Source: Flavobacterium magnum (GTDB lineage: Bacteria > Bacteroidota > Bacteroidia > Flavobacteriales > Flavobacteriaceae). Taken from it: a stretch of DNA of 64,000 nt. The notes beneath the pieces are model-generated. The model had not been told where the DNA came from. It made no database searches and was given only the letters and a program-made list of their open reading frames with translations. Both the position numbers and the translations under genes were made by a program. The stretch is taken from NCBI RefSeq assembly GCF_003055625.1, contig NZ_CP028811.1, positions 2,852,001 to 2,916,000 on the forward strand, written 5' to 3'. Positions 8,986 through 11,220 of this stretch are shown piece after piece; within the stretch, counting starts at the first letter, position 1; each line of letters begins with the position of its first letter.

Positions 8986-9510
8986 ATGAAATTATTAGGC
9001 ATAGGCTCCCGGATTGACCATCCGGAATTCGGAAAAGGCGTTATTACGAATGTTTCTTCCAAGGATTACTGGGTAACGTTCATAGAAAACGGACTGGAAA
9101 CAATCGCGCTCAATGACACATTTGAGGTCATCGAGGCATCAGAAAATGAAGTGGATACGATCAGTCTGTATGATGTGGAGCGTTCACTGCGCGACATCCT
9201 CAAAAAATGGTCCGGTATTGGCGAAAACGTAGCCATAGCCGACAAATGGAAAGGCGGCAAGATGGTGCTTGAACCCGGGCAGGGCGGACTCGCCGCAAAG
9301 GACATCCCGATTGATACTTTTTTCCACAAGATTATTATGGTACGCGACCGCCTTCGCGTGATGGAACAGAAAATCAATGCCAGCAATCTTGAGGAAATTG
9401 AAAAGATCGACTTGCAGCAGTACATTACGAAAATTTACGGCAGCCTGACGACTTTCAATGTGCTGTTTAAATCCAACAGCGACTATTTTGTTGGAGAAAA
9501 AACAAAATGA
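8986..9510 (+). CDS. Conserved protein with N-terminal SH3-like fold, unknown function
   Basis: 174 residues, no signal peptide. The first 50 residues (GSRIDHPEFGKGVITNVSS, then YWVTFIENGLETIAL) look like the short beta-barrel seen at the start of CarD-like and UvrD-tail proteins, which often contact RNA polymerase or nucleic acid. The rest is mostly helical and charged. I know similar flavobacterial proteins of unassigned function. The role is not known, and the beta-barrel reading is from pattern only. Confidence 0.7.
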   Translation: MKLLGIGSRIDHPEFGKGVITNVSSKDYWVTFIENGLETIALNDTFEVIEASENEVDTISLYDVERSLRDILKKWSGIGENVAIADKWKGGKMVLEPGQGGLAAKDIPIDTFFHKIIMVRDRLRVMEQKINASNLEEIEKIDLQQYITKIYGSLTTFNVLFKSNSDYFVGEKTK

Positions 9511-9544
9511 CACCCCATGTAGCCGGTACATCGGTAAAGACCAA

Positions 9545-9690
9545 TAAAAAAAAGGCTTCTAATTAAAGAAGCCTTTTTTCCCAAAAACAATTAAAACATG
9601 ATCGTGATATAAAATTCACCCACGTTTGTGGGCGTTCCCCAATTTTATACTCGTTACTCAGGTTTCAAACTACAAAACAAAATGTATTTT
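9545..9690 (-). ncRNA. Candidate structured small RNA, copy A
   Basis: Read on the minus strand, this segment has a conserved 5' block (9662-9690), a two-part stem, a 26-nt block (9577-9602) identical to copy B, and a Rho-independent terminator (stem 9551-9560 with 9567-9576, then a T run). The main stem pairs 9608-9616 with 9641-9649 and 9617-9623 with 9628-9634. A GGGGAA bulge (minus strand, 9635-9640) lies between the two helices. Copy B keeps the bulge and the shape with different paired bases. It begins right at the stop codon of the small membrane gene, so it could be its own transcript or a 3' UTR product. Confidence 0.55.
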
Positions 9691-9848
9691 TAAACCGGCC
9701 TTTTGCCCTGGATTACCCTCAGCAATACCGCAATAATTGCAATGACCAATAAGATGTGGATGATTCCGCTTGTCGCATATCCTCCGAAGAAACTGATAGC
9801 CCAAATGATGATCAGGATCACCGCGATGGTGTAAAGTAAATTTCCCAT
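9690..9848 (-). CDS. Lmo0937-type small membrane protein
   Basis: A 52-residue protein read directly from the minus strand: starts MGNLLYTIAVILIIIW, ends RVIQGKRPV. Two hydrophobic helices (about 5-21 and 28-44) are separated by FFGGYATSG, followed by a short basic tail. This is the pattern of the lmo0937/DUF5670 family, which is often induced by envelope or osmotic stress. The neighbouring YihY gene also fits an envelope setting. Its stop codon abuts RNA candidate A. Confidence 0.75.
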   Translation of the reverse strand: MGNLLYTIAVILIIIWAISFFGGYATSGIIHILLVIAIIAVLLRVIQGKRPV

Positions 9849-10302
9849 GATTTCTGTTGTTTAGTGTTATTAAAGTTTGGTTTAAAGCTTTCAGGAATTC
9901 CTTCCGGCTTACATTACAAAATTGGCAATAATAACGCAGCGGGCTGTTACAGGATATTTTTGAAAAGTTATAAAATATATCGGTCTCAAAAATGACCATG
10001 ATCAACTCCCCGTAACCAACGGAAATTTCGCTTACGGGCATAAAAAAGACCCTTATTTTCATAAGGGTCTCTTTCCCAAAAACAATTAAAACATGATTTG
10101 TTAAAAAAAATCCAACTGTAAAGATTTACAATCGTTCCCCAATCTTAATTAACAGGTTCCAAGTTTCAAACTACAAAACAAAAATGTATTTTTGACATAT
10201 CCAAGTATTTCGTCGGATATTTGTATCGTTTCATCTTGATTTTACAAAATTCAGACTTTAACGCGAGGTATTGTTACATTTAAAATATCGAATGTTACAA
10301 TA
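9849..10302. other. Gene-free stretch containing RNA candidate B
   Basis: No credible coding sequence. The only structured element is the RNA candidate at 10041-10193. The rest is AT-rich: the leader of the small membrane gene (9849-10040) and the region downstream of the YihY gene (10194-10302). Confidence 0.6.
10041..10193 (-). ncRNA. Candidate structured small RNA, copy B
   Basis: Second copy of the element at 9545-9690, about 495 bp away in the same orientation. The 26-nt block at 10072-10097 is identical to 9577-9602. The outer stem pairs 10100-10112 with 10141-10153 (two T-T mismatches). The inner stem pairs 10113-10122 with 10125-10134 (two G-U pairs). The GGGGAA bulge is kept (10135-10140). 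The terminator is a perfect 10-bp hairpin (10047-10056 with 10061-10070) with a T run on the minus strand only, which sets the direction. The conserved 5' block is at about 10163-10193. Paired bases differ from copy A while pairing is kept, which supports a functional RNA fold. Confidence 0.6.
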
Positions 10303-11220
10303 TTACTTACTGTCAATTTCAAAAATTTCCTTTTTTATCTCCACTGCGTAATCATTAGGAATGATTTTCTGGCCATGCGCCCGCGCGTACACCTTGGTAA
10401 ACTCGGCCCCAAAATACAATATAATCGCCGAATAATACACCCAGACCAAGATGATGATAACCGAGCCCGCAGCGCCATACACCGTCGCGACAGTGGAATT
10501 CCCAAGATACGTGCTGATGGCCAGTTTCCCGATCATAAAGAATACCGAGGTGACGCCGGAGCCGATCAGCGTGTCCTTCCACGCAATGGTCCCGTCGGGC
10601 AACGTCCTGAAAATGATCGAAAACAGCGTTGTTGTGGTCACGAACAGGATCAGCGTGTTGATCCCATAAAAGAGGTATACGGTCACATTTGGGAAATAGA
10701 GCGCCAGCTTTGAGTTCAGGATGTCCATGACGGTGTTGACGAGCAGACTCACCATCAGCAGGAATCCCATGACCGCAATCATGGAGAACGACATCAGACG
10801 GTTTTTTACAAATTTCATCACGCCCTTGTTGGGTTTGGCCTTAAGCCCCCATATGAAATTGATCGAGCTCTGGATTTCGGCAAAAACACCCGACGCACCA
10901 ATCACCAGCATCACAATCCCGAACACAGTGGCAAAAGTGGTGCTCCCTGAAAGCTGCGTGTTCTTAATCGTCTCCTGGATTTGCATGGCGGCCTCATTAC
11001 CGACAAGGCCGTTGATCTGGCCAAAGAATTCACCCGTCACCGCTTCCTCTCCAAAGAAAAAACCGGTAATGGCCAGGATGATCATGATGAGCGGCGGCAA
11101 GGCAAACACTGTGTAGTAAGATAAGGAGGCGCTGAGTTTAATCGCGTTGTCCTCATTGAACTCATTAAAGGTGTCCTTTAGTAGCTGCCAGCCGCTTTTT
11201 ACCATTTCCCTTCGTTTCAT
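10303..11220 (-). CDS. YihY/BrkB family inner-membrane protein
   Basis: 305 residues with about six membrane helices and the family's conserved start (SLSYYTVFALPPLIMIILAI, about residues 31-50). Further family segments are NFIWGLKAKP and VYGAAGSVIIILVWVYYSA. Once annotated as ribonuclease BN or virulence factor BrkB, these proteins have no settled function; some work suggests transport. It has its own promoter and is followed by the RNA candidate region. Confidence 0.92.
   Translation of the reverse strand: MKRREMVKSGWQLLKDTFNEFNEDNAIKLSASLSYYTVFALPPLIMIILAITGFFFGEEAVTGEFFGQINGLVGNEAAMQIQETIKNTQLSGSTTFATVFGIVMLVIGASGVFAEIQSSINFIWGLKAKPNKGVMKFVKNRLMSFSMIAVMGFLLMVSLLVNTVMDILNSKLALYFPNVTVYLFYGINTLILFVTTTTLFSIIFRTLPDGTIAWKDTLIGSGVTSVFFMIGKLAISTYLGNSTVATVYGAAGSVIIILVWVYYSAIILYFGAEFTKVYARAHGQKIIPNDYAVEIKKEIFEIDSK

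Follow-up and report, generated by a model that had tools for sequence, protein, structure and literature searches.

In enterobacteria, the tandemly encoded OmrA/OmrB as well as RybB and MicA are stress-controlled small RNAs (sRNAs) that limit outer membrane protein synthesis in an Hfq-dependent manner. They differ in sequence and structure from the RNAs described here, and the analogy is functional only. Comparable systems have been described in the Bacteroidota. FopS and GibS of Bacteroides thetaiotaomicron are paralogous sRNAs that pair with translation start regions; they are induced by membrane-type stress and target outer membrane protein messages (PMC11697453). The FopS family has 14 members, one of them derived from a 3' untranslated region (UTR); their seed lies at the 5' end, and they are transcribed from canonical sigma-A promoters (PMC11697453). 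In Flavobacterium psychrophilum, the sRNA Rfp18 is described as conserved in the genus and needed for normal protease mRNA levels, and it is said to pair through its third stem-loop (PMC9723704).

Here, we describe two minus-strand RNA elements in the window, the whole 64,000-nucleotide stretch of Flavobacterium magnum DNA that we analyzed. Like FopS and GibS, they are paralogous Bacteroidota RNAs, one of them possibly of the 3' UTR type, for which pairing with start regions is proposed. Compared by description, they differ from FopS in that there are two copies, the invariant stretch lies before the terminator, and the targets are only candidates. With the Rfp sRNAs, again compared by description only, they have in common that they are structured Flavobacterium RNAs, but unlike Rfp18 they combine a single long hairpin with a terminator and occur in only 6 of 398 genomes. 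They may still be identical to one of the Rfp sRNAs.

The family is absent from Rfam 15: there were no matches in the whole window at gathering cutoffs, and nine related loci gave four matches, none overlapping these RNAs. The original prediction had left open whether the elements belong to Flavo-1 (RF01705), which is also a flavobacterial noncoding RNA of unassigned function. The Rfam search spoke against membership, as the Flavo-1 model misses both copies: it had no match in the window at its gathering score of 42 bits and was missing from the 25 matches with E values up to 10 over positions 9400 to 10350. The places that this model does match are other ones. We found no description of the RNA in the open-access literature on Flavobacterium/Bacteroidetes sRNAs or on the associated genes, most of which was covered as listings. 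What we describe appears to be a new RNA family of a known kind, structured and probable sRNAs in an unusual genomic setting.

Two copies of a structured RNA

The original prediction described two minus-strand elements that share a 26-nt block, a 5' block, and a conserved GGGGAA bulge and that end in different terminators. Sequence comparison and folding agreed on every one of these points (Table 1). The 26-nt block is 100% identical between the two copies. The 5' blocks are 96% identical over 24 nt (9659-9682 and 10160-10183), a second 5' stretch is 89% identical over 18 nt (9674-9691 and 10176-10193), and the bulge region is 93% identical over 15 nt (9633-9647 and 10133-10147). The copies also have TTTTGTAGTTTGAAAC in common. 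Each fold contained one GGGGAA bulge on the 5' side and one terminator, and the two terminators differ in sequence; the terminator pattern scan reported that of copy A alone and missed that of copy B. There was no third copy in the F. magnum genome, where the next match (E 8e-4) fell on the inverted terminator arm of copy A itself.

TABLE 1 Coordinates of the two RNA copies, their parts, and associated features (window positions unless a locus is named)
Feature	Position	Strand	Description
Promoter-like module before copy B	10245..10297	minus	TAACATT-N14-TAACA-N22-TTTTG; G000:C1:2862245-2862297
Leader, module to copy B	10189..10244	minus	
TACATTTTTG	10179..10188	minus	Conserved 5' of the copy B RNA
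RNA copy B (free-standing)	10041..10178	minus	TTTTGTAG, P1 closing helix, P2, GGGGAA bulge, P3, invariant block, terminator
Copy B GGGGAA bulge	10135..10140	minus	
26-nt common block, copy B	10072..10097	minus	5' half in P1; 3' half (TTGTTTTTGGG) predicted unpaired
Copy B intrinsic terminator	10042..10074	minus	From sequence comparison and fold
Promoter-like module before lmo0937-family gene	9917..9970	minus	Same layout; G000:C1:2861917-2861970
lmo0937-family small membrane protein, 52 aa	9690..9848	minus	NF033488; DUF5670
TACATTTTG	9678..9686	minus	5' of copy A
RNA copy A	9545..9677	minus	Begins 12 nt after the lmo0937-family stop codon
Copy A GGGGAA bulge	9635..9640	minus	
26-nt common block, copy A	9577..9602	minus	
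Copy A intrinsic terminator	9546..9581	minus	From pattern scan and fold
Second RNA-like element	L089:5536-5672, L087:5600-5770, L080:5730-5920, L077:5710-5900	minus	

Both copies were predicted to fold in the same way. P1 pairs UUGAAAC with GUUUUAA and then UGR with UCA; it is followed by an internal loop, P2, the one-sided GGGGAA bulge, P3, an unpaired U-rich linker, and the terminator. The minimum free energy of the whole element had a z score of -4.6 in copy A and copy B alike. For the core without the terminator the values were -1.47 (copy B) and -1.51 (copy A), within a range of -0.9 to -3.4 over nine sequences. Thus, the whole-element score stems mostly from the terminator, and what supports the core is its covariation among related sequences, not its energy.

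The covariation of the helices, which had been proposed from the two copies, was also found among their relatives. In the two-copy alignment, pairing is kept through two-sided changes at four positions of the apical helix and six of the terminator. Among six close sequences, 11 of 41 pairs had changed on both sides and 94.3% of the cells were paired; four of five covariation measures were reached by 0 of 500 shuffles, and 90 of 500 reached the fifth, which concerns further pair types. In the alignment of 10 sequences (9 distinct), which was fitted to the structure by the covariance model R2 and is to that extent biased in favor of that structure, 18 of 28 core pairs had changed on both sides, 0 of 500 shuffles reached the observed values on five measures, and all slid versions scored far below the true register. 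The linker ATTGTTTTTGG is present in all 10 sequences, and the opposite strand of P1 varies around it and still pairs. The 3' part of ATTGTTTTTGG is unpaired in the predicted folds of both window copies. The GGGG bulge is absent from the G100 sequence. We rejected a pairing of the GGGGAAC bulge with GUUUUU of the linker, an idea that came from a poor eight-sequence alignment, because it consists mostly of G-U pairs and is lost in G100.

Distribution and gene neighborhood

According to the covariance model searches, 6 of 398 Flavobacterium genomes and one named MAG carry the RNA, for a total of 10 sequences, 9 of them distinct. These structural homologs, together with the covariation, the terminators, and the lack of a long reading frame, support the original reading of the elements as a small-RNA family. 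Both copies are present in three genomes: that of F. magnum (G000), G236, and the MAG Flavobacterium sp. BFFFF1 (L067, G421). In the last two, the copies flank the same lmo0937 gene. G372 (a genome that is 67% complete), G100, G154, and G352 have a single copy; G352 and G154 have identical elements, and the element of F. aurantiibacter (L100) looks identical to that of G154 as well.

Several searches led to this set. A terminator-rich first model, R1, matched 15 of 150 genomes at an E value of 0.01; on reading, only G000, G100, and G154 carried the RNA, and the remaining matches were rejected as terminators or T-rich 3' ends. The motif GTTTTAATTGTTTTTGG was found in 7 of 299 genomes, compared with 1 of 299 for the reversed motif; four of the seven carry the RNA (G000, G236, G100, and G154), and there is none at the matches in G311, G286, and G114. 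R2 matched 10 of 398 genomes at an E value of 0.05, of which 6 were kept on reading and 4 (G414, G117, G260, and G339) were discarded on visual inspection. R3, which was built from the sequences of all six carrier genomes that it recovers, returned the same 6 of 398 at an E value of 0.02. When we followed synteny, only L067 and L100 had the RNA among the 80 loci listed around the neighboring 174-aa gene. Thus, the RNA is rare and patchy within the genus. As far as we searched, with strict filters in the 398-genome searches that may have missed weak relatives, the family appears to be confined to a few Flavobacterium lineages.

The lmo0937-family gene sits between the two copies (NF033488, 59.9 bits against a cutoff of 30; PF18919). 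The upstream neighbor is a YihY/BrkB-family gene (PF03631), and the module of copy B lies directly behind it. The downstream neighbor, on the opposite strand (8986-9510, plus), encodes a 174-aa protein for which there was no Pfam or NCBIfam match at an E value of 0.01. This protein is conserved in Flavobacteriaceae, with 71 to 92% identity over the 80 loci listed. In 7 of the 10 sequences, the RNA begins 6 to 25 nt after a stop codon. The gene in front is lmo0937 in five of them, at 12 nt in F. magnum and G236 (copy A), 11 nt in BFFFF1 (copy A), 25 nt in G100, and 21 nt in G372. The G154 RNA begins 6 nt after a gene assigned to DUF4142 by Pfam, and the G352 RNA is preceded by the same DUF4142-type frame end. 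With 12 nt between it and the lmo0937-family gene, copy A may therefore be produced as a 3' UTR instead of as a small RNA in its own right. No comparable gene lies directly in front of copy B.

Between the three genomes with both copies, the B copies are 89.7 to 95.7% identical and the A copies 77.3 to 80.9%; within one genome, A and B are 68.2 to 74.8% identical. These pairwise identities indicate that the two copy lineages predate the split of the three genomes. The geneless copy B is under stronger constraint than copy A.

A second element that looks like an RNA and has a terminator lies between lmo0937 and the 174-aa gene at four loci: L089 (F. noncentrifugens), L087 (F. caeni), L080, and L077, where lmo0937 was recognized by its C-terminal end only. 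TTTGTTTGGTTCGCAATAT and TGGGGTTAT are invariant in this element. It was rejected as a member of the family, as R3 finds nothing in any of the four loci, and it has no Rfam match. Structured RNAs thus seem to recur at the 3' end of this stress-type locus. Near the second element, without overlapping it, there are Flavo-1 matches above the Rfam cutoff (L080:1313-1388, L077:1260-1363, and L089:6694-6788). In L080, yihY and DUF4142 are present upstream as well. DUF4142 genes recur at the RNA locus, before lmo0937 or before the RNA (L065:5690-6310, plus; L080:6103-6693, minus; L089:5851-6450, minus).

A common promoter-like module and candidate pairing targets

Copy B and the lmo0937 gene have a promoter-like module in common, with repeats 21 bp apart followed by AATTTTG. 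We drew the pattern TAACWTT-N14-TAACW-N20-25-TTTTG from upstream regions aligned by eye and scanned seven carrier genomes. There were eight matches in five genomes, seven of them at the RNA/lmo0937 loci, the very loci that defined the pattern; the reversed pattern gave five matches in the seven genomes. The eighth match precedes a CsbD gene of F. magnum (PF05532, 59.6 bits). Given five matches for the reversed control, this single match is not significant by count and could be due to chance. What makes it look credible is its context and a further similarity (CTGTAACAG and GCAATTTTGTAA). The CsbD module is at G000:C1:2091698-2091751 (L214), and a nearby gene for a LytTR response regulator faces CsbD. 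A repeat spacing of two DNA turns is reminiscent of LytTR regulators, and we can only guess at a link between such a regulator and the module. AgrA binds two direct repeats (PMC4227749).

A relaxed scan of nine loci placed the module before the gene that precedes lmo0937 in L080, L089, and L077; Pfam assigns this gene to DUF4142 in L080 and L089. Weaker forms were found in L101 and L113, along with two evident chance matches, and nothing was found in L065, L084, and L087. The exact module is absent from G154 and G352.

TACATTTTG or TACATTTTTG stands in front of copies A and B and of the G100 and G372 RNAs, and G154 carries TAAATTTTG in its place. Flavobacterial sigma-A promoters have a TAnnTTTG box at -7 (PMC9723704). 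TACATTTTG and TACATTTTTG resemble this box, but the spacing is 1 to 2 bases longer and the -33 element is not clear. They may be either an internal promoter or a processing site. If the RNAs are processed, the transcript would start at the upstream module, at about 9.91 kb for copy A and 10.24 kb for copy B.

The complement of the 26-nt block, TTTCCCAAAAACAATTAAAACATGAT, resembles a flavobacterial leader that ends in ATG. We compared the block with 339 start regions sampled from about 12% of the genome plus the window, and 5, 3, 2, and 1 of 150 mononucleotide shuffles were as strong on four measures. When dinucleotide shuffles were used with 323 genes, 97, 30, 20, and 6 of 170 were as strong on the four measures. 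Thus, the preference for start regions nearly vanishes with dinucleotide shuffles. The candidate target is a gene (G000:C1:2505508) whose product we judged by eye to be a beta-barrel-like secreted protein. It has a 16-nt perfect complement to the block, 6 nt before the ATG, and the predicted duplex of -18.3 kcal/mol was matched by 0.6% of the 323 sampled start regions. Its ortholog in G236 (65% identical) gave a duplex of -15.9, matched by 2.5% of the sampled start regions. The gene had no match in G421 (BFFFF1), G372, or G100 and matches of only 29 to 31% identity in G154 and G352, so a close ortholog is present in only one other carrier. A search for start-site-like sequences found seven other places in F. 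magnum, compared with three for the reversed pattern, and seven compared with seven in G236. In F. magnum, the start regions of a 110-aa protein at G000:C1:3101701 and 3075621 (L004 and L005) are near identical and have an upstream stretch in common.

Possible function and alternatives

We give a probability of roughly 45% to the reading that the elements are sibling small regulatory RNAs of a stress-type regulon, acting in trans, with one of them being or deriving from a 3' UTR and the other having a gene of its own. Copy B would be an independent gene under the module that it has in common with the lmo0937-family gene. Copy A would be the end of the lmo0937 message, either released from it or made from TACATTTTG just behind the stop codon. 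Each RNA, if transcribed as we infer, would consist of a long imperfect hairpin (P1, P2, the GGGGAA bulge, and P3), the invariant U-rich linker ATTGTTTTTGG, and a terminator. The module would probably be switched on by envelope or general stress. The linker and the adjacent P1 strand would then base pair with other messages at their A-rich leaders and start codons, and this pairing would hold back translation of those messages. Base pairing with start regions, modeled on FopS of Bacteroides, is the mechanism that we favor. Flavobacterium is without Shine-Dalgarno sequences (PMC6847099), and the enterobacterial model therefore does not give how an sRNA would block translation.

The first alternative is that the RNA is a structured 3' UTR with a terminator, which ends and protects the lmo0937 (or DUF4142) message and has no action in trans. 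We consider this rather unlikely. It would account for the seven sequences that lie closely behind a stop codon and for the terminator at the end of each window copy, but it is copy B, which has no gene in front, that is the more conserved in the three genomes, and the invariance of ATTGTTTTTGG goes beyond what stability alone demands.

It is less probable that the linker and bulge bind an RNA-binding protein or the polymerase, as a decoy or in a 6S-like manner, instead of mRNAs. The linker does stay constant whatever the helices do. The Rfam 6S model (RF00013) had no gathering match in the window and none in the F. magnum genome at an E value of 0.001, which would leave the 6S role vacant there; this model is weak for showing absence, as it detected 6S in only 5 of 14 control genomes. 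6S RNA is a long hairpin with a central bubble that templates pRNA, whereas a short hairpin with a one-sided 6-nt bulge is predicted here, in two copies of about 135 nt with an intrinsic terminator. A 6S RNA has been reported for F. psychrophilum (PMC9723704).

We think it very unlikely that either copy controls the adjacent yihY or lmo0937 message in cis, by termination or as an antisense RNA. Copy B is directly behind yihY and copy A directly behind lmo0937, but both are 3' of these genes with terminators of their own, and they are on the same strand as their neighbors, so they are not antisense to them. Finally, a short protein-coding region or a chance repeat can be dismissed almost entirely: the leader of copy B has a 22-aa ATG frame in F. 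magnum, but across the three genomes this frame is 22, 10, and 8 aa long and so is not conserved as a coding frame, the longest ATG frame inside the RNAs is 0 to 20 aa in nine sequences and unrelated between the copies, and the pairs covary.

The reading as sibling regulatory RNAs can be extended to a wider one, which we offer as doubtful. There may be a Bacteroidota stress regulon, marked by the 21-bp repeats and AATTTTG and perhaps driven by LytTR, that produces small RNAs out of the 3' ends of lmo0937 and DUF4142 messages. At this locus, different Flavobacterium lineages would carry two unrelated-looking RNA families, this one and that of TTTGTTTGGTTCGCAATAT/TATGGGGTTAT, and one lineage would have duplicated the RNA with its promoter and freed it from the gene. 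The linker would be a general mask of A-rich start regions that lack Shine-Dalgarno sequences. The family is a compact test case, with two siblings, one of them free-standing, and an invariant linker that resembles an anti-start sequence. The common module links the RNA to lmo0937 and possibly to CsbD and DUF4142 genes.
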